Source: a virus
Strand: one strand, 5' to 3'
IMG/VR virus record: IMGVR_UViG_3300024999_000427
Location: 1 to 22,564 of that record
Length of the DNA stretch: 22,564 nt
Part shown: in pieces, positions 6,342 to 20,624 of the stretch
How positions within the stretch are numbered: position 1 is the first letter of the stretch
Layout: each line of letters begins with the position of its first letter
Notes under the pieces: generated by a model
What the model saw: only the letters and a program-made list of their open reading frames with translations
What the model was told of the DNA's origin: nothing
Database searches by the model: none
Position numbers and translations under genes: made by a program

Positions 6342-6373
6342 TAAAATAAAAGCACCCCTATTGGAGTGCTTTT
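6342..6373 (-). terminator. Terminator overlapping the HNH stop codon
   Basis: Minus strand AAGCACTCC-AATA-GGGGTGCTT (one G-U pair), then TTATTTTAA. On the plus strand the same arms contain a C-A mismatch, so the element is oriented to end minus-strand transcripts. Together with the promoter upstream it makes the HNH gene a self-contained transcription unit. Confidence 0.75.
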
Positions 6374-7365
6374 TGTTGTTCGTTGTATTCGGTTCTACTA
6401 TATTTCGTCCATGCGTATCCTGCTGCCTTGCGACATTCGGCGTTGTGGTATTTAACCATACCTCGTTTCAGCCGACTAGGGGTTACGCTGAATTCAATAC
6501 CGCAATGTTCGCAAATGAGAGGAATCCGTTTCTTCTTACTATTGTTGAAACATTCCGTTGAGTGGAATTTTCCACGCCCTGAATTAATGCGTTCCTGCGT
6601 TGTGCTAAATTCAATTCCACATCCTTGACAGGTAACATTCAGATGTATTTCAGGCTTCTTCGGTATTCCTTTTTGCTTTTTTCCATGACAGGAAGGGCAA
6701 AGTATCTGAAGGTTATCAGGGTCATCGTTTCTGTTTTCCGTCTGACCACTTCCATCAATATGGTGTCCGGCTAGTCTTATTTCTGCGCCACATTCCGAAC
6801 ATCTATTACTATCACGCTCAAGGGCTACTGCTTTGTTTCCTGAAAACCTTGTTTTGTCATGATACTCCCGTTCAATTTGTTTATACAGTTCGGGATTCTT
6901 CTCTTTCTTGCGGCGATCATTTTCCTTTGAGCGTTCAGGGTTGTTTAGTCTCCATTGCTTCGCCCTAGACCTATAAACATCTCCTTTTTCAAGATAGATT
7001 TTCTTGGACGCACACTCAGGACTACAGCATACCTGCTTGTTTACGGTTGGCATGAACACCTTTTCGCAAATTGGACAAATTCGTTCAGTTAATATTCTTT
7101 TTTTCTTTTCCCATTTAGCTTTATCGCGGCATACATCTGAACAGTAAGTTTGGTCTTGCCTATGAGGTGGAATAAACACTTTTCCGCAGAATGGGCAAGT
7201 TTTGGGTGTTTTCTCTTTCGGAGGCTTGTCGGGAGGAATATAATCCTTCAAGTATTCTTTCCGCTTTTCGGAATCGTACTTATGCCTACATTCCTTCGAG
7301 CAAAACCTACCAAACCCTTCACCGTTATCATACTGTTTGCCGCAGATTGGACAATAGACCAACAT
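6358..7365 (-). CDS. Free-standing HNH endonuclease with multiple zinc knuckles
   Basis: This 335-aa protein has three N-terminal Cys4 zinc knuckles (pairs near residues 5/8-22/26, 57/60-75/79 and 97/100-114/118). A basic helical linker follows, then an HNH core near residues 185-232: C189-x2-C192, H201-H202-I-D, N218, then C223-x2-C226-H227 (H-H-x-D ... N ... H with two structural CxxC pairs). Two further C-x2-C-G-I-E-F ... H-x3-C knuckles lie near 246-272 and 285-311. This is a DNA endonuclease of the type that behaves as a mobile, homing-like gene in phages, with the zinc knuckles likely used for DNA recognition. It is wedged between the capsid and head-fibre-like genes and has its own promoter and terminator. 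The start ATG lies 9 nt after GGAG, inside an inverted repeat. Confidence 0.9.
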   Translation of the reverse strand: MLVYCPICGKQYDNGEGFGRFCSKECRHKYDSEKRKEYLKDYIPPDKPPKEKTPKTCPFCGKVFIPPHRQDQTYCSDVCRDKAKWEKKKRILTERICPICEKVFMPTVNKQVCCSPECASKKIYLEKGDVYRSRAKQWRLNNPERSKENDRRKKEKNPELYKQIEREYHDKTRFSGNKAVALERDSNRCSECGAEIRLAGHHIDGSGQTENRNDDPDNLQILCPSCHGKKQKGIPKKPEIHLNVTCQGCGIEFSTTQERINSGRGKFHSTECFNNSKKKRIPLICEHCGIEFSVTPSRLKRGMVKYHNAECRKAAGYAWTKYSRTEYNEQQKALQ

Positions 7366-7438
7366 AGCTCGACACTCCTTTATTATAAACTTTAACTAAT
7401 TATATCAGTTTAAGTTTAGCGTGTCAAGCTATGTTGGT
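7358..7438 (-). promoter_or_regulatory. Inverted repeat with an embedded promoter controlling the HNH gene
   Basis: Arms 7358-7375 and 7421-7438 pair over 18 bp (one G-U in minus-strand RNA). An inner pair, 7387-7397 with 7407-7417, adds 11 bp with one mismatch. The HNH start codon (7363-7365) is inside the outer stem and its GGAG (7375-7378) is at the stem edge. The -35 lies in the distal arm and the -10 in the apical loop. RNA reading through from the capsid gene would fold and hide the start. RNA begun at the embedded promoter would lack the distal arm and leave it open. This mechanism is inferred from the sequence layout. Confidence 0.7.
7399..7427 (-). promoter_or_regulatory. Consensus sigma-A promoter for the HNH gene
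   Basis: Minus strand TTGACA (7427-7422), exactly 17 bases, then TATAAT (7404-7399). Both hexamers match the consensus perfectly. Transcription would start near 7392, about 27 bases before the HNH start codon. Confidence 0.85.
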
Positions 7439-7461
7439 ACTAATTTATGTCACTCATTATA

Positions 7462-8433
7462 TCAGGCTGGAATACTGAATTGGAATGGGTGCCACGAAAA
7501 TGCTCCAGCACTAAACCACATAAGTGAACCAATTTTCCACACTTGAGATTCCATATCCTTCCAACTATTTACCTCATATGAGTCACCGGATTCGAGTCTA
7601 TTCACCAATTTTAGACTTTCTTTTGCTTGTTCCGAGTCAAGAACGCACCACGGTTGTCCTGTCTTGCCAGTTTGTTTGCGGAAATTTTTCCACACGACTA
7701 ATTTCATTGAGCCATAGAAGATGTTGGGGTTATTATCGGCAGTATCCACCTTACCCATACCGCCGATAATCTCAATGGCTTTCTGGCGAAGGGCCGTAGG
7801 GACGACTAACGTATCTGGTTGGAGATTGGCATCTTTTCCATTTTCTTCCTTTGTGTCGAACATCTTTTGACACAAAGCTTCGAGATTGGCTTCGTTCAAC
7901 TCTAGAGCCTCTAAGTTATCTTGAGTTGAACCGTAATTAGCGGATGTGTGGGCATTAGAAGCAATTGGTAATCCATTTGCGACATTCGTCCAATTCAAGT
8001 TAACCCCATTAATCGCATAGCTCGCTTGGTCGGCATTCGTAAAAATGCCAGCGCATGCATTCTCGCGAAGCCTTGCGGCTGCCAAGGCAAATTTACCTTG
8101 GTCAGTTTTCAGATTAACCAACTTGGCATTTGATAAAAGGAAACGATCGTACGCCATGCCACTTTGCCAAATTATGGGAGTCCACACTTTGGAATTTCCT
8201 TCCTTTTGCTGACCATATGTGAATTCTCCACCCCATTGAGTGAATTCCGGCGCGCCAACCATTTCGCTGATTGCCTCAGTAGGGTTGTCTGATTGAATCT
8301 CGTCAAACAAAAGGGGAATCATGGAATCCTTTATTGCATCAAGGTATTTATCTTGCCAATAGGCCATCAGTGGGTTCTCATATAAACCTACCATCTTTTG
8401 GAAATTACCACTATCTTGAATCATTACACCCAT
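7462..8433 (-). CDS. Major capsid protein
   Basis: This 323-aa protein follows the scaffold and decoration genes, the normal place for the major capsid protein. It has an N-terminal helix (QKMVGLYENPLMAYWQDKYL), then 'MIPLLFDEIQSDNPTEAISE', then an extended beta segment resembling an E-loop ('FTQWGGEFTYGQQKEGNSKV'). A long helix follows (KFALAAARLRENACAGIF), then a P-domain-like part ending 'LMWFSAGAFSWHPFQFSIP'. The pattern suits an HK97-type fold, which is inference from order and composition. The ATG at 8433 is preceded by AGAGGTG. The HNH gene follows after 96 bases with no terminator between, so capsid transcripts would read into the HNH hairpin. Confidence 0.85.
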   Translation of the reverse strand: MGVMIQDSGNFQKMVGLYENPLMAYWQDKYLDAIKDSMIPLLFDEIQSDNPTEAISEMVGAPEFTQWGGEFTYGQQKEGNSKVWTPIIWQSGMAYDRFLLSNAKLVNLKTDQGKFALAAARLRENACAGIFTNADQASYAINGVNLNWTNVANGLPIASNAHTSANYGSTQDNLEALELNEANLEALCQKMFDTKEENGKDANLQPDTLVVPTALRQKAIEIIGGMGKVDTADNNPNIFYGSMKLVVWKNFRKQTGKTGQPWCVLDSEQAKESLKLVNRLESGDSYEVNSWKDMESQVWKIGSLMWFSAGAFSWHPFQFSIPA

Positions 8434-8459: not shown

Positions 8460-8879
8460 TTAAGCTTGGCAAATGTTCTTACCAGCAATCATCTGTACTT
8501 TCAAATTTGTGGCATCCTTCTTCAAAATCCGTAAATGCCCACCGGTCACCGTAGCACTCGCCACATTAGCCCCATTCGCATCCAACACAGCCAATTTCAG
8601 CCCAGGTAAGAATGTAGCAGCAGCCGTCCCTGTGTAATCAGCCTCGATGATGTCCCCAGGCTTAACCAACTCCATCACAGCCAGAACATCCGTCCCAGCA
8701 TCAGCCGCCTTAACGCAAACAGCCTCAACCGCCGCTGTTGCAGCCGCCTTGGTCCAGCGATTTGAAGCCAGGTAATAGCCACTTCCTACTACAGCCGCCT
8801 CTGAATCTGTCATGTAAATGTCCTCTACGAATTTGCCATGGTAGTTCCCAAGGATACTACCGATAATTTTTAACGCCAT
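8460..8879 (-). CDS. Putative capsid decoration protein
   Basis: This 139-aa protein is rich in Ala, Val, Gly and Thr and predicted to be mostly beta, with motifs such as 'VKPGDIIEADYTGTAA' and 'GLKLAVLDANGANVASATV'. Position between scaffold and major capsid, length and composition match head decoration or stabilisation proteins of many phages. AAGGAGAG precedes the ATG. There is no enzyme motif. Family membership is inferred rather than shown. Confidence 0.6.
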   Translation of the reverse strand: MALKIIGSILGNYHGKFVEDIYMTDSEAAVVGSGYYLASNRWTKAAATAAVEAVCVKAADAGTDVLAVMELVKPGDIIEADYTGTAAATFLPGLKLAVLDANGANVASATVTGGHLRILKKDATNLKVQMIAGKNICQA

Positions 8880-9894: not shown

Positions 9895-10038
9895 TTACTT
9901 TCCGTTATTATTCGACTTCTTAGACCTTAGATCTCCCTGACCTTTCAGGATTTTTGTAGCAGGTTTACTGCGCTCTCCTGAAGTCCCGAACGTGAATGAT
10001 GCCTTAACCGGCATTGCAGACTTTAGATTTTGTCCCAT
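9895..10038 (-). CDS. 47-aa basic protein between two terminators
   Basis: The ATG follows a perfect AAGGAGGTGA ribosome binding site. The product begins MGQNLKSAMPVKASFTFGTS and ends with a Lys/Ser/Asn-rich tail. It is strongly basic, lacks cysteines and is probably disordered at its C-terminus. A terminator lies on each side, so it forms its own small unit inside the head operon. I know no named family. Possible roles are a scaffold or portal accessory protein or a nucleic-acid-binding peptide. Confidence 0.65.
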   Translation of the reverse strand: MGQNLKSAMPVKASFTFGTSGERSKPATKILKGQGDLRSKKSNNNGK

Positions 10039-10068
10039 TATGTCTCACCTCCTTAACCTAAAGATGGG

Positions 10069-10093
10069 TAAAATAAAAGAGCCTTCTCAGCTC
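10069..10093 (-). terminator. Short terminator after the Tad1-like gene
   Basis: Minus strand GAGCT-GAGAA-GGCTC (5 bp with one G-U) followed by TTTTATTTTA. The stem is short but the T-rich tail is good; efficiency may be partial, allowing read-through into the scaffold and capsid genes. Confidence 0.5.
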
Positions 10094-10104
10094 ATCGGTT
10101 GACT

Positions 10105-10488
10105 TTATTTGATATGTGTTCCTTCGACCCCACGTTTTTCTCTGGCCATTGTTCGCTTTCTTAACCACATTAACGCCTCTTCAAGCTTCGTAATAGCAAC
10201 TGCGTTATCCCTGCAAGCAAACTCTGTTTTCTGGAAGTGTTCAAGCCTGGTAATTACCATTGCAATTAAATCCTCGTTGCACACACCATTAACGCCGCAT
10301 TCTTTAATAGGCCCCTCTTGAAAATGAACCTCACACAAAACAGGTTGTGGTTCACCCTTTGGATAATCTACGGCAGCAACTTCAAAATTATGAGGAGCAT
10401 TGTACTTCATTAACTCCGGAGATTCGTGATACACCGCCGTATACTTGTTAGTTAATAAATCGTGTTTGAGTTCCACCTTATCCACCAT
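10105..10488 (-). CDS. Acb2/Tad1-like protein (possible anti-CBASS/anti-Thoeris sponge)
   Basis: This 127-aa protein has a divergent N-terminal half, then 'HFQEGPIKECGVNGV' (about 55-69) and 'NEDLIAMVITRLEHFQ'. A C-terminal helical hairpin follows with 'CRDNAVAITKLEEALMWL' (92-109) and 'KRTMAREKRGVEGT' (111-124). The R-[DE]-N-x-x-x-[IL]-T-K-L-E-E-A-L-M-W pattern plus 'RGVEGT' is what I recognise as the Acb2/Tad1 hairpin domain. Known members bind signalling nucleotides: cyclic di- and trinucleotides of CBASS, or cADPR isomers of Thoeris. By family knowledge it would blunt host abortive defences by sequestering the signal. It overlaps the upstream gene by 11 bases in the portal-to-scaffold interval. 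An AGAAAGG lies very close to the ATG, so a start at the next GTG codon is possible. Family assignment is fairly firm; the ligand is unknown. Confidence 0.65.
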   Translation of the reverse strand: MVDKVELKHDLLTNKYTAVYHESPELMKYNAPHNFEVAAVDYPKGEPQPVLCEVHFQEGPIKECGVNGVCNEDLIAMVITRLEHFQKTEFACRDNAVAITKLEEALMWLRKRTMAREKRGVEGTHIK

Positions 10489-10726
10489 ACCTTTCTAAAT
10501 TAGCCAAAATCATTTGGTCTACAATGTCACACTGAATATGACCGCATATCTCCTGCCTTGTGCCAAAATCAGCATTGAAATAACCTGTCATTACCTCTCC
10601 GCTCTTTAGTTTGAAGGAAACGACAATCGACTCAACCTTATTCTCCTTCGCAATATCGAATGTTTCAATTAGGAACTCATTAGGGCCTTGCGCACTTGAT
10701 TGTGGGAAATGGAGTATTTTAGCCAT
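10478..10726 (-). CDS. Conserved-type small phage protein (82 aa)
   Basis: It begins MAKILHFPQSSAQGPNEFLI and contains 'VVSFKLKSGEVMTGYFNADF', then 'GTRQEICGHIQCDIVDQMIL' and 'ANLERYGG'. The form 'x-F-P-x-S-S ... y-x-T-K/S-G-E-v-x-t-G-y-f ... E-x-C-G-H-x-Q-x-D-I' recalls a widespread small phage protein of unknown function. GGAAGG precedes the ATG. It overlaps the genes on both sides by 8 and 11 bases, so it is translated together with the Tad1-like protein. A link to counter-defence is possible from this pairing but unproven. Confidence 0.6.
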   Translation of the reverse strand: MAKILHFPQSSAQGPNEFLIETFDIAKENKVESIVVSFKLKSGEVMTGYFNADFGTRQEICGHIQCDIVDQMILANLERYGG

Positions 10727-10913
10727 TTGTTCCTTCCGCCTTATAAACGTGCATTATTCCACCGCCATTTTCTTTGCCTTCAAATAAATACACATGATAA
10801 CCATTAATATCTGCATCATGACTACCGAATTCATTACCCGTGTACGAAGGGAAGGTTTTCATGAGCAAAACCAAGTTATCGACTTCAATAGATTGTAATT
10901 TTACTTCTTTCAT
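10719..10913 (-). CDS. Small protein of unknown function (64 aa) after portal
   Basis: The ATG overlaps the portal stop codon (TAATG) and is preceded by AGGAGGACAGTA. The product starts MKEVKLQSIEVDNLVLLMKT and is a small acidic alpha/beta protein ('YHVYLFEGKENGGGIMHVYK'). There are no cysteines and no membrane segment. It begins a run of three overlapping small genes that ends with the Tad1-like protein. No family recognised. Confidence 0.6.
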   Translation of the reverse strand: MKEVKLQSIEVDNLVLLMKTFPSYTGNEFGSHDADINGYHVYLFEGKENGGGIMHVYKAEGTNG

Positions 10914-13045
10914 TACTGTCCTCCTACAATCTGCTGTAATATAGCAATCTGTTCTTCCTGTGGTCTACTCAAAAACACTTCCAACTTATCAGGGTCCATC
11001 TTTAGCAACAACTCCTGTACAGGTTCTGGGAACTCCTGTAGAGCTTGTTCTATCTCAGGAGGTATATTTGCCTCACCTTGCGGTTGCTCGCCCTCCTGTG
11101 GCACCCTAGACTCTCCTACAGTACTTTGTGTCTCTCCCGTTGGTTGCATTTGCTCTAAATCCTGTGGTTGAAGTTGTATTCCTGCTTTTGCCGCTAATTG
11201 AATCTGTCCTGCAATTGGTAAGTCCCTAAATGAGATTGATTCAGCAGGTCCCTTTTGTTCTTCCTGCTTAGGAGCCTGTTGCATCTGTTTAACAATCTGC
11301 CCCATCTCGTCAATGACACCCTGTAGATCCGGTACACCAAGTTTGTTCAAGAGCTTCAAGAATGTCAGGTTCCCTGGGTTTGGCTCGAATCGTCCCTGTC
11401 CTGCTAAATTGCTCAATGTGTTGAACACTTCGCTTCTCGACTTCATAAATCCACTCTCAGCATTAATCTCAATGTCAAAGTCAGGATAAATGTAGTTGCC
11501 CGACATATCTTTGAGCATTGCCAACCTGTCGAACTTTCCATACTGTGCTTTTGGTTGCGGCATAGATGGGTCTGCGTTCGGGTCTTGAAGTGGTTCGCCT
11601 TTAATTCTGAATGGCCTAGCTTCATCTACAAAGGCTAAGGCAAAGTCTGCAATAGTTCTGTATATCCTTTTGTAAGCAGAAGCCTTATACGCTGTTTTAA
11701 GGGCTACCTTGAAGTTTGCTTGCTCTACATATACCTGAGCTTGCCTGCCACTCGTTACACCTTGGTCTCGAACGCCTAATGCTGAGTTTGTGGCCCCTGT
11801 TAATAACTGCATCCACTCTTTGAGTTGATTAATCCATGCTACTCCATCGATGTTGCTGTTCATGTCGATTTCTTTTGTCGATTGGTTCGGGTCCTTAACG
11901 TAAATCACACTAGAGATAGATGATTCAAGGGCAATCTTTACTTCTTGGCTGTCACAGAGAATCTTCTTATTTCCCTTTAAGTGCTGTTCCTCATGCTGAT
12001 AAACCGCTTTTTTGATAGCCTCATTAATGTCGTGAATATCCTCCATAATAGAGATTCCCCAAAAGGACTTGTCCCTAGGAATAAATGGCTGATAAATTAA
12101 ATCCCAGGACTTCGGAACGTAATAGTCAACTTCCTTACCTTCATACTCCTCTGTATTAGCAATCTCGCCTTCGATTCTCCGATGGAAGAATTTAGGTAAA
12201 TGGCTAATTACTAAGTCGCCAGACCACCATAACTTACATATGTCGCCTTCTTCATCCCTGTACGATGTTTCTACGATGGTGTACTTGGCTAACCCCATTT
12301 CCCGATCTCCTGCGTCTTGATCGGAAACGGTTATTCGTTGCGAACCGGACATTTCATCATACTCATGAAATAGTTGAGCTTTATTCTCAAGCACTTCCTT
12401 TGTGATATGCGGCCATTTGCGAATGATGTAATTGGCTGTGCGATTGTTTGGATGATGATAATGCTCCATGTCGTCAATGCTAGTTGCCCCATGATTCGGG
12501 ATGATGTCTTTTGGGTGTGGCATGGATATCTCTATTTCCCCGACATACCCTGCTTTTTTGACGTTGTTGTTCCAATGGATTTTGTGGAAGGCCCCACCGA
12601 ACTTCATTACCCTACGTTCATTGTGGAGGTTAATTTCTTCAAGGGATGGTTGAGCAGAACGAACCACATACATGACGTAGTTTTTAAGGATTTCGACAGA
12701 CTCTTCATCATCTTGAGCTATGGCCTTGAAGTCAGGGTCAGGAACATCGAGCGAAATCAAGCTCTCGACAATCATTCGAGGGAAATTAATAATCGTGCGT
12801 GGACTCCTGTTAGAATTGGTTAGCTCGTCCTCAACATTTTGGAAGTCCCTACCTGCATTGTATACGCTCTCCCAAGCATCGAACCTCTTATCCCATGGTG
12901 CTTTAGCTCGTTTATCTGCCTCAAACACAGGTTGCCATTGCTCTATAAGTTCGCGGTCTGCCTCTTCCTGCTCGGCATCGACTACCATTTCTTTCTTGCC
13001 CATGATTTTACCAACTGCCTTTCGAGCCTTAGTTAGTAGCGACAT
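10913..13045 (-). CDS. Portal protein
   Basis: At 710 aa this matches the size of podovirus (P22-type) portals rather than the shorter HK97 or SPP1 types. It follows the large terminase and precedes the scaffold, as portals do. Visible features are an acidic N-terminal helix, a 'RSPRTIINFPRMIVES' segment, a long clip/stem-like region ('YQPFIPRDKSFWGISIMEDI' then 'HDINEAIKKAVYQHEEQ'), and 'GVTSGRQAQVYVEQANFKVA', typical of portal wing/stem sequences. The C-terminal part from about residue 570 is Gln/Pro/Glu-rich with repeated helical segments, compatible with a flexible barrel tail. AGAGAGGTGAAACA precedes the ATG. Confidence 0.85.
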   Translation of the reverse strand: MSLLTKARKAVGKIMGKKEMVVDAEQEEADRELIEQWQPVFEADKRAKAPWDKRFDAWESVYNAGRDFQNVEDELTNSNRSPRTIINFPRMIVESLISLDVPDPDFKAIAQDDEESVEILKNYVMYVVRSAQPSLEEINLHNERRVMKFGGAFHKIHWNNNVKKAGYVGEIEISMPHPKDIIPNHGATSIDDMEHYHHPNNRTANYIIRKWPHITKEVLENKAQLFHEYDEMSGSQRITVSDQDAGDREMGLAKYTIVETSYRDEEGDICKLWWSGDLVISHLPKFFHRRIEGEIANTEEYEGKEVDYYVPKSWDLIYQPFIPRDKSFWGISIMEDIHDINEAIKKAVYQHEEQHLKGNKKILCDSQEVKIALESSISSVIYVKDPNQSTKEIDMNSNIDGVAWINQLKEWMQLLTGATNSALGVRDQGVTSGRQAQVYVEQANFKVALKTAYKASAYKRIYRTIADFALAFVDEARPFRIKGEPLQDPNADPSMPQPKAQYGKFDRLAMLKDMSGNYIYPDFDIEINAESGFMKSRSEVFNTLSNLAGQGRFEPNPGNLTFLKLLNKLGVPDLQGVIDEMGQIVKQMQQAPKQEEQKGPAESISFRDLPIAGQIQLAAKAGIQLQPQDLEQMQPTGETQSTVGESRVPQEGEQPQGEANIPPEIEQALQEFPEPVQELLLKMDPDKLEVFLSRPQEEQIAILQQIVGGQ

Positions 13046-17259: not shown

Positions 17260-17682
17260 TTACAGTCCACCACCAAGGGCAGCAAAGCACATGTGCCAAC
17301 TCTCTATGTCATATCTATCCTGTTCGGCATCATACATACTATCATCCTGTTCCTTATCGTCTGAACGTATTACCTCGTATTCTCCGCGTTCTTCTTCCTT
17401 GATTGATGCCCTCATCTTTCTGGTGATCTTATATTCAATCCAATTAGGCTCAACTAATAATAAGTCCATTTCTTCCTTCTTATGATTAAACTGATGGTTA
17501 TAAGGTGGATTATTGACCCCTATTAGGTATATTTCATATATCCTCATCGTGGCATCGGTTCCGAACTTGGCATACTCTATCCTATTTGTATCCATGTAGC
17601 ACTTTCTAGGCAAGTGGCCCTGTTTGGAGAAGTGACCGTTTTCCATTCGTTTATCAATATCATTAGTTCTGCCGATGTACAC
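17260..17682 (-). CDS. GIY-YIG endonuclease (5' end uncertain)
   Basis: The open frame from a GTG gives 140 aa starting at the second half of the catalytic motif: 'YIGRTNDIDKRMENGHFSKQ' followed by 'FGTDATMRIYEIYLIGVNNPPYNHQ' and an acidic C-terminus. The first half, 'FIYYVYKFIDNKNEIV', is encoded in frame just upstream (to about 17727), so the true protein includes it. That gives Y-Y-V ... Y-I-G, Arg of 'GRT', and Glu in 'IYEIYLIG'. No ATG, GTG or TTG lies before it in frame. The likely start would be an ATT at 17724, or the ATG at 17731 (with AAGGTG before it), which runs into a stop in another frame. This is a small mobile nuclease, intact or lightly damaged. Confidence 0.75.
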   Translation of the reverse strand: MYIGRTNDIDKRMENGHFSKQGHLPRKCYMDTNRIEYAKFGTDATMRIYEIYLIGVNNPPYNHQFNHKKEEMDLLLVEPNWIEYKITRKMRASIKEEERGEYEVIRSDDKEQDDSMYDAEQDRYDIESWHMCFAALGGGL

Positions 17683-17920: not shown

Positions 17921-18475
17921 TTATTCAGACGATTCAATATCTACTATTTCACCCTGAATCTGATTGCGCTCCATGATTTCTAACAGCTGTTTAAGGTCCG
18001 AGTCTTCTAGAGCTACAATATTTTGAGTCAGCAAGGGTCCACCGTTTGCACCGGATACCTCTATGTTTTGGGTATCTCTCCATTTAGCAGGTTGCCTGTT
18101 TTTTAACCAGAAGATTGCAGAAGTTGCATCAGGGGGATAATGCTTAGTAGTTGGCACAATGACAGGCTCACCATCATGTATGAAGATTTTATCTTCAGGA
18201 TGGCTATATCCTGAAGCTCTATGATACAGTTTTGATGCTATCTCAGCATCAGCAATTTCCTTCCCATTTTTCAGGGCTAAATTAAACTCTTTGTGAGCCA
18301 TCTTCCAATTATTAACTGTTTGTTCGGTAACCTCAAAATAGGTTGCTAGGTCGACATCGGTAGCGCCCAATAAGCAGTAATTATATGCAAGTTTGGCAAA
18401 CTCTTCTTTATACTCACTCTTGCGACCTCCACCAGGGTTTCCTACTGCATATTGATTACCTTTTTCAGCCGACAT
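17921..18475 (-). CDS. terS: Terminase small subunit
   Basis: This 184-aa protein carries 'GNPGGGRKSEYKEEFAKLA' then 'LLGATDVDLATYFEVTEQTV' and 'NNWKMAHKEF' (about 12-63), the helix-turn-helix of small terminase subunits. A hydrophobic oligomerisation part follows with 'PPDATSAIFWLKNRQPAKWR', a signature seen in many TerS proteins, and an acidic C-terminus that would contact the large subunit. It would bind the pac/cos site and guide the large terminase. Start follows GGAAGGGGAATAG and overlaps the upstream HNH fusion by 11 bases. It lies about 2.8 kb upstream of terL, an unusually large gap. Confidence 0.85.
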   Translation of the reverse strand: MSAEKGNQYAVGNPGGGRKSEYKEEFAKLAYNYCLLGATDVDLATYFEVTEQTVNNWKMAHKEFNLALKNGKEIADAEIASKLYHRASGYSHPEDKIFIHDGEPVIVPTTKHYPPDATSAIFWLKNRQPAKWRDTQNIEVSGANGGPLLTQNIVALEDSDLKQLLEIMERNQIQGEIVDIESSE

Positions 18476-19106
18476 ATCTATTCCCCTTCCTGAGATTATC
18501 TATAGCAAATAACGGTTGCAGATTCTCTAGTGACCAACAAGCCTTAAATTCATCATCCTCTTGGTTCTGATAATTAAACCAACTGTCAGGCTTTTTATGA
18601 TCAATGTGCCACACTTTTCCGTAATTATCCCATGTCATTCCTTCTTTGAATTGCATTTCAAGATGTTGTATTAAATCCTTAACCGTGTATCCAAGATGCC
18701 TAAATACACCTTCTTTGTTATTTCCCTTTATCCTTGATCTAATCAGGCTAGAAATATTGAATCTTATTCTTGTATGTATGTCATTCTTGACTTTATCCTT
18801 CAAATATTCATTGGCTTGTTTCCTGATATGCGGTAGTTTTCTGTACTGCCTCCGCTTTTCTTTTTCCTTCTCCTTATTAATCAAGTATTCTTCCTGATCA
18901 TTCATAGCATTAATAATAGCGTTCCTGAATCCCTCATATTTATCTATCCACTCGAATAGCTCAGAATCACTTATATTAAAGAACCATGCTAGTCCTTTAT
19001 CGTTTACATTAAGATACAAACACAATTTATATGCCTGCTCATTGTACTTTTCATCATATTTGGAAGGTCTACCTCCTGCATGTTTAACTACTACCTCAGC
19101 CATCAT
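18465..19106 (-). CDS. Small-terminase-like HTH fused to an HNH endonuclease
   Basis: Residues 10-75 read 'GGRPSKYDEKYNEQAYKLCL', 'NDKGLAWFFNISDSELFEWI', closely matching the HTH of the neighbouring small terminase (GGR-x-S-x-Y ... A-Y ... F-x-x-x). A basic linker (about 76-115) and an HNH domain follow: 'EGMTWDNYGKVWHIDHKKPD' (H167 and H170 region), then 'CWSLENLQPLFAIDNLRKGN' (N195, N204). The HNH subtype is the common phage form with 'G-M-T-W ... W-x-I-D-H ... N-L-Q-P-L'. It looks like a paralogous small terminase whose C-terminus was replaced by a nuclease. It could cut cos DNA during packaging or be a mobile endonuclease targeted to terS. AAAGGAGGTG precedes ATGATG. Confidence 0.8.
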   Translation of the reverse strand: MMAEVVVKHAGGRPSKYDEKYNEQAYKLCLYLNVNDKGLAWFFNISDSELFEWIDKYEGFRNAIINAMNDQEEYLINKEKEKEKRRQYRKLPHIRKQANEYLKDKVKNDIHTRIRFNISSLIRSRIKGNNKEGVFRHLGYTVKDLIQHLEMQFKEGMTWDNYGKVWHIDHKKPDSWFNYQNQEDDEFKACWSLENLQPLFAIDNLRKGNRYVG

Positions 19107-19796: not shown

Positions 19797-20624
19797 ATGG
19801 CAACTAAACAAACAGTCTACGAAATGGTCACTGAGCGCATTATTAAAAAACTTGAATCCGGTGTAATCCCTTGGAGAAAACCTTGGAACTCATCCGGTGC
19901 AGTTGCTTGGGATACCCAGAGAGAATATCGAGGCATTAACGCAATGCTACTAGAGCCAGGCGAGTATGCAACCTTCAATAAGATTAAAGAAGCAGGTGGA
20001 AAAGTCAAAAAGGGAGCCAAAGGCCAAATAGTAGTCTTTTGGAAAATGTTTGAGAATGAAGAAGACCCAGACAAAAAAATTCCATTCTTACGTTACTTCA
20101 CGGTTTTTGAGATCAATACTCAGGTTGAAGGATTAAAGAGTAAGCGCAAAGAAGTAGAAGCGCACAACCACAACCCTATAGAATCAGCCGAGCAAATAAA
20201 AGAAGCCTACCGGAATTGCCCTCCGATAAGCTACGCGCCAGGTAAAGCCTTCTATGTGCCTTCCACCGACTCCATAAGTGTACCAGAAATTAACGACTAC
20301 AACAACCCCGAAGAATTCTATAGCACTATGTTCCATGAGATGGTACACAGCACCGGTCACAAATCACGATTAAACCGTAGCGGAATCACAGCCATAGCAG
20401 CATTCGGTAGTGAGACATACAGCAAAGAGGAATTGGTCGCGGAAATCGGTTCGGCAATGCTTTGCACAGTAGCAGGAATCGACCAAACCACCTTTGAAAA
20501 TTCAGCATCTTATGTCTCATCATGGTTACGAGCATTAAAGGGAGATCCTAAAATGGTAGTATTCGCCGCAAGCCAAGCGCAAAAAGCAGCCGACCATATT
20601 AGAGGAATTAAAGCCGAGTACTAA
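19797..20624 (+). CDS. ardC: ArdC-type antirestriction protein
   Basis: This 275-aa protein has the two-domain ArdC layout. The N-terminal ssDNA-binding part carries 'YEMVTERIIKKLESGVIPWR' with P-W-x-x-P-W (25-30), then 'YRGINAMLL' and 'FNKIKEAGGKVKKGAKGQIV'. The C-terminal zincin-like domain carries 'MFHEMVHSTGHKSRLNR' (H180-E-M-V-H184) and 'EELVAEIGSAMLC' (E212/E216 supplying the third ligand). In known systems ArdC protects incoming DNA from host restriction, especially in single-stranded form. It is preceded by AGAGGAGG and transcribed with small genes. Length and motifs are complete. Confidence 0.9.
   Translation: MATKQTVYEMVTERIIKKLESGVIPWRKPWNSSGAVAWDTQREYRGINAMLLEPGEYATFNKIKEAGGKVKKGAKGQIVVFWKMFENEEDPDKKIPFLRYFTVFEINTQVEGLKSKRKEVEAHNHNPIESAEQIKEAYRNCPPISYAPGKAFYVPSTDSISVPEINDYNNPEEFYSTMFHEMVHSTGHKSRLNRSGITAIAAFGSETYSKEELVAEIGSAMLCTVAGIDQTTFENSASYVSSWLRALKGDPKMVVFAASQAQKAADHIRGIKAEY

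Follow-up and report, generated by a model that had tools for sequence, protein, structure and literature searches.

The window, i.e. the whole stretch of DNA that was analysed, is an uncultured-virus record of 22.6 kb; a near-identical record differs from it by 1 base in 7 kb. On its minus strand the major head (capsid) protein gene lies 5′ of a gene for a zinc-ribbon/HNH endonuclease, and the gap between them is 96 bases. Both Pfam and PHROGs assign the latter to the HNH family, the PF01844 domain scoring 31.9 bits (curated cut-off 21.4) over residues 189-232. Among annotated phage records no relative of this protein or of the capsid protein was found at 1e-5, a scan of GTDB for relatives gave 2 distant partial matches and nothing else, and within the window we detected neither a known Rfam family nor a tRNA. 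The features of the locus, from the capsid gene onwards, are the following:

7462..8433, minus strand: major head (capsid) protein gene (PF10124/PF25209, phrog_371)
7421..7438, minus strand: distal (5′) arm, ACCAACATAGCTTGACAC, which holds the -35 (inverted-repeat search, fold)
7422..7427, minus strand: -35 hexamer TTGACA, 6/6, inside the distal arm (promoter scan)
7407..7418, minus strand: inner helix, 5′ strand, TAAACTTAAACT, 11/12 positions complementary to 7386-7397
7399..7407, minus strand: extended -10 TGaTATAAT (TGATATAAT), with TATAAT at 7404-7399 and a spacer of 17, in the apical region (promoter scan)
7392, minus strand: where the nuclease's own transcript is predicted to start (position rule, 7 nt past the -10)
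7386..7397, minus strand: inner helix, 3′ strand, AGTTAAAGTTTA (complementarity, fold)
7375..7381, minus strand: Shine-Dalgarno AAAGGAG, adjoining the ATG arm, its last G within the proximal arm
7358..7375, minus strand: proximal (3′) arm, GTGTCGAGCTATGTTGGT, which holds the start codon ATG at 7365-7363 (inverted-repeat search, fold)
6358..7365, minus strand: zinc-ribbon/HNH endonuclease gene, 335 aa (Pfam HNH; phrog_1271, HNH endonuclease, 1.9e-31)

A sequence-only reading had noticed at 7358-7375/7421-7438 an 18-bp inverted repeat with one G-U, enclosing a perfect TTGACA-17-TATAAT promoter whose -35 is in the distal arm, the nuclease ATG being in the proximal arm; this description and all its coordinates were confirmed. 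The arms, 18 nt each, form 17 Watson-Crick pairs and one U-G around a loop of 45, the capsid stop codon ends 23 nt ahead of the distal one, and no other sigma70-type match than TTGACA-17-TGaTATAAT reaches 12/12 within the first 20 kb, which were scanned. An inner 11-bp stem had also been proposed: 11 of the 12 positions can indeed pair (7418-7407/7397-7386), but in the minimum free energy (MFE) structure they are split into 6+7 pairs, and because this helix extends into the -10, placing that element in the apical loop, rather than in the apical region, was slightly generous. The long inverted repeat is confined to the surroundings of the HNH gene start. The hairpin was considered as an intrinsic terminator and rejected: no T-run follows it, and no terminator is listed on that strand from the capsid to the HNH gene. 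We also noted a direct repeat, CTGATATAAT(G/T)AGT, at 7452-7465 and 7395-7408; the first copy forms a second extended -10, without a good -35, that overlaps the capsid stop codon, and RNA starting from it would carry both arms.

Read-through RNA and RNA starting at 7392 had been expected to fold differently, which they do in silico. For the 151 bases of RNA from 7320-7470 the free energy is -45.8 kcal/mol (z -4.7, with 0/200 shuffles as good), as against -11.3 kcal/mol (z +0.3) for the RNA from 7392, whose structure is not unusual, and the modelled cost of opening the ribosome binding site (RBS) goes from 24 kcal/mol in the former to 5 kcal/mol in the latter. An unbroken 18-bp stem, with G-U allowed freely, is present in 3% of shuffled 22.5-kb sequences, so that the stem by itself is mildly rare; what is unusual is its placement on the promoter and the start codon, not its length. 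Pairing of the promoter side with the RBS side has a z of -7.2, reached in 0/1000 shuffles.

Further IMG/VR contigs, found via the capsid protein, provided relatives of the locus. Across them, the space that follows the capsid gene is a hot spot for cargo: several types of HNH gene occur there, L011 has an antisense GIY-YIG gene, L050 and L054 have no nuclease, and L008, L010, L053 and L103 have antisense small genes and a terminator, then an HNH gene. That nucleases are present, absent or replaced at one site is an indirect hint that the HNH gene may encode a homing nuclease. Wherever an HNH gene was found directly behind the capsid gene, its RBS or start has a complement in the promoter DNA: the distal arm is in or abuts the promoter and the proximal arm is on the RBS or start in 12 out of 12 directly capsid-linked HNH genes. 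In the relatives the arms are placed as follows, the site of the distal arm being given first and that of the proximal arm second:

L005/L009/L021/L051: abutting the -35; codons 2-5
L013, L026, L045, L049: spacer; Shine-Dalgarno (SD)
L014: -10; ATG
L052: spacer; between SD and ATG
L044: -35 and spacer; SD (decayed HNH gene)
L027: -35 region; SD

The L027 capsid shows no BLAST similarity to that of the window, but both fall into one remote head-protein family. The predicted start is 3′ of the distal arm in the window and in the 12 genes tested, so that the own RNA would come without the 5′ arm; in the L005 group it would begin at the SD itself. Three further observations concern the site. The L044 remnant behind the capsid gene (from 4970) is a truncated zinc-ribbon/HNH gene in which the ATG position reads ATA, and its promoter and RBS still form a strong hairpin (-31.5 kcal/mol). 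L103 retains at 190-225, directly behind its capsid gene, the sequence CGATTAGCTTGACATAGTGAAT, which makes up the distal arm with the -35 in the L005-type hairpin, its cargo now being of the terminator-shielded type (antisense gene, terminator, another HNH gene), and L008 has at 2736-2790 a decayed version of this orphan distal arm and -35; it looks as if an exchange of cargo may have left the arm behind in both. Finally, the antisense GIY-YIG nuclease gene of L011 (4994-5581, minus strand) is directly behind the capsid gene, which recalls segD of T4, between genes 23 and 24.

The mild rarity of the window stem, found in 3% of shuffled windows, and the close relatedness of some loci leave some room for the view that a single chance hairpin, devoid of function, was inherited by all of them. 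The pairing was measured as the energy of the duplex that the RBS region forms with the 60 bases preceding the predicted start, with 1000 dinucleotide shuffles as reference; the tested set comprised 11 HNH genes that follow the same capsid gene and one that follows the major head gene without BLAST similarity. All 12 show promoter-RBS pairing, with p from 0.000 to 0.014, the latter, weakest value being that of L052. When a promoter score of at least 9 and a z of at most -2.5 were jointly required of 532 mechanically called genes from the same contigs, exactly 11 were selected, and all 11 are directly capsid-linked HNH nucleases. The twelfth, L052, failed this joint criterion, probably because its promoter is about 100 bases upstream. 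None of the remaining 85 genes with a promoter score of at least 9 shows such pairing, and other HNH genes of the same phages were not selected. In addition, the nine distinct hairpins total -230 kcal/mol with their native arm partners and -138 ± 16 kcal/mol with permuted ones (0/100,000 permutations). Inherited coincidence is scarcely credible against these figures, all the more so as the nine hairpins serve several nuclease types, one of them behind a capsid gene without BLAST similarity.

The idea that such pairing is general to phage HNH genes was rejected, since it was not seen in 13 HNH-region genes of unrelated phages (f2b1, Lietuvens, 63301, phiSS12, BUCT083, Pascal, Sw5, PB50, 6ec and TMW 1.591). 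As a positive control, T4 e gave a z of -2.1; T4 segB, for which the start was guessed, went undetected, so the metric can overlook true cases. Several other genes of the phage group deserve mention. In the window, at 18465-19106 and 17921-18475 (both minus strand), an HNH-like C-terminus, that of 18465-19106 (z -1.8, weak promoter), comes after an N-terminus that matches the start of the protein from L090:11542-12048, and a second such gene adjoins. The L090 protein seems to us to be a small terminase subunit, and the arrangement looks like the invasion of its gene by a nuclease. A GIY-YIG nuclease-like gene is at 17260-17682 (minus strand; z -0.2, where the test is weak, the start having been called internally), and 19797-20624 (plus strand) encodes an ArdC-like antirestriction protein that has an MPTase-PolyVal metallopeptidase domain. 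Upstream of the capsid region, L083 has at 9902-11023 a gene with an 11-point promoter, whose product we take, by eye from its sequence, to be TnpB-like. Just 5′ of the capsid gene, a 139-aa gene shows strong pairing of the RBS with its upstream region (z -3.5 to -4.2), without a good promoter, in several relatives (L093:10450-10869, L082:10816-11235, L007:3554-3973, L008:1321-1740, L088:3309-3728); in its window equivalent, 8460-8879, the pairing is not strong (z -1.4). This is possibly a translational control of a head protein.

Modelled accessibility is also in line with what was seen in the window: for 9 of the 12 loci the cost of opening the RBS is 9-19 kcal/mol lower in the own RNA. The relief is just 2-4 kcal/mol in L005 and L009, because their own RNA retains a small local hairpin, and 1.8 kcal/mol in L052. 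Terminator-shielded HNH genes have an RBS that is likewise costly to open in a hypothetical read-through RNA, and thus the contrast between shielded and directly linked genes is confined to promoter-RBS pairing, which the former do not show (p 0.10 for L008, 0.85 for L010, 0.38 for L053 and 0.37 for L103). This bears on the possibility that the hairpin is an RNA-processing or stability element, e.g. an RNase III site, that parts the capsid mRNA from the downstream one, RBS occlusion being a by-product. The long, near-perfect helix just 3′ of the capsid stop codon speaks for such an element. However, helix length and position vary between loci and one side is nevertheless always on the RBS or start, and the shielded genes lack the pairing; we consider this explanation very unlikely.

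It had also been suggested that the arms should be conserved or covary in homologous loci. Pairing and placement are kept in all 12, arm sequences are not, and compensatory changes are found in both groups that could be compared, with 93/93 cells paired overall and three compensatory double changes. In L021/L005/L009/L051 (4 sequences) 60/60 cells are paired, a single double change has turned U-A into C-G, and seven pairs have one-sided wobble variants; in L026/L045/L013 (3 sequences) 33/33 are paired, with two double changes (G-C to A-U and C-G to U-A) and one wobble. Sliding the partner strand reduces pairing to 21-61%. Since the sequences are few and shuffled controls equal the covariation score in 107/500 (4-sequence group) and 59/500 (3-sequence group) cases, we take covariation as supporting, not decisive.

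These comparisons also speak to the alternative offered by the sequence-only reading, an operator whose half-sites would bind a dimeric repressor, possibly the HNH protein itself, and so shut the promoter. The arms do overlap promoter elements, and I-TevI is a known autorepressor with an operator over its own promoter (PMC2988022). Yet a half-site of conserved sequence and spacing was not found between loci: in related genes at the same site the arms differ in sequence, in spacing and in position relative to the promoter. One arm is always at the RBS or start region of the RNA, and sequence changes preserve RNA pairing, G-U included. The window and the L005 group even have a -35 neighbourhood in common, TAGCTTGACA, which is paired with different start-region stretches, hard to reconcile with an operator. 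Because half-sites shift in this way while RNA pairing stays, an operator is disfavoured, and we hold it to be highly improbable.

The explanation that we prefer, with a probability of roughly 0.8, is that a cis-acting RNA lock silences the HNH gene on the capsid message and exempts RNA from the gene's own promoter. Recurrence in relatives and modelled accessibility support in silico the earlier proposal of a T4-like lock with a host sigma-A promoter. Transcription reading through from the capsid gene would yield an RNA with both hairpin arms, whose pairing would bury the HNH Shine-Dalgarno, the start codon or both, so that capsid RNA would give little or no nuclease. As the distal arm is within the sigmaA/sigma70-type promoter, upstream of the predicted transcription start, the own RNA should not contain it; its RBS would be open and nuclease would be made. 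With promoter and lock encoded together in a stretch of a few dozen bases, a mobile nuclease could be expressed independently of its host capsid operon. The lock looks selected rather than accidental, because it recurs with at least nine different sequences. A cargo gene at this site would either end the incoming transcript, by means of a terminator, or turn deaf to it, by means of the lock. Whether one may generalize further we see as an even bet: entry into a transcribed capsid operon would repeatedly select a read-through-proof host promoter that encodes the RBS-hiding strand, a convergent entry rule for terminator-less cargo to which a terminator with an antisense gene would be the alternative at the same site. 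In any case the lock tracks the position directly behind the capsid gene, not HNH genes at large. It suggests how selfish nucleases may persist within an essential operon, supplies a sequence signature for spotting genes meant to ignore their own operon, and represents a compact design to insulate inserted genes against read-through expression.

Known systems share parts of this arrangement. The segD gene of T4 is between genes 23 and 24, antisense and without a recognised promoter (PMC2988022). It resembles the present case in that a nuclease gene separates the major capsid gene from the one that comes next, whereas the nuclease genes here are sense, with their own promoter and lock. In IS10 and IS50, RNA from outside folds back and hides the transposase RBS while RNA from the own promoter, a host sigma70 promoter near the element's end, does not. 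The likeness is in the sigma70-type promoter and in a fold-back that hides the RBS in read-through RNA only; the difference is that we deal with an HNH nuclease in a phage capsid operon and saw no transposase, terminal repeats or antisense RNA.

The lock principle itself is established for T4 I-TevI, I-TevII, I-TevIII and segB, Aeh1 mobE, and T4 e and soc (PMC2988022, PMC3014915). Those locks, too, hide the RBS or start when the RNA comes from an upstream promoter and leave the RNA of an internal promoter without the 5′ arm, and they frequently belong to mobile nuclease genes, the free-standing HNH gene mobE among them (PMC2988022, PMC3014915). At the present locus the read-through RNA likewise has, in silico, a hairpin over the RBS and start, and the own RNA, by its predicted start, is without the 5′ arm. 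However, the locks of T4 segB, I-TevI and Aeh1 mobE depend on phage middle or late promoters (PMC2988022), whereas TTGACA-17-TGaTATAAT is host-type, and no T4 late promoter TATAAATA was found between the capsid and HNH genes. With phage-programmed promoters the T4 lock therefore sets early/late timing; here we propose a shield against the capsid, i.e. late, operon. The phages, nucleases and hairpins are unrelated, and the promoter is of consensus host type. The same logic, in unrelated sequences of another phage lineage, suggests that the T4-style lock is no T4 peculiarity bound to phage-programmed promoters; what is new relative to it is the host-type promoter, the capsid-operon site and the repeated independent hairpins.
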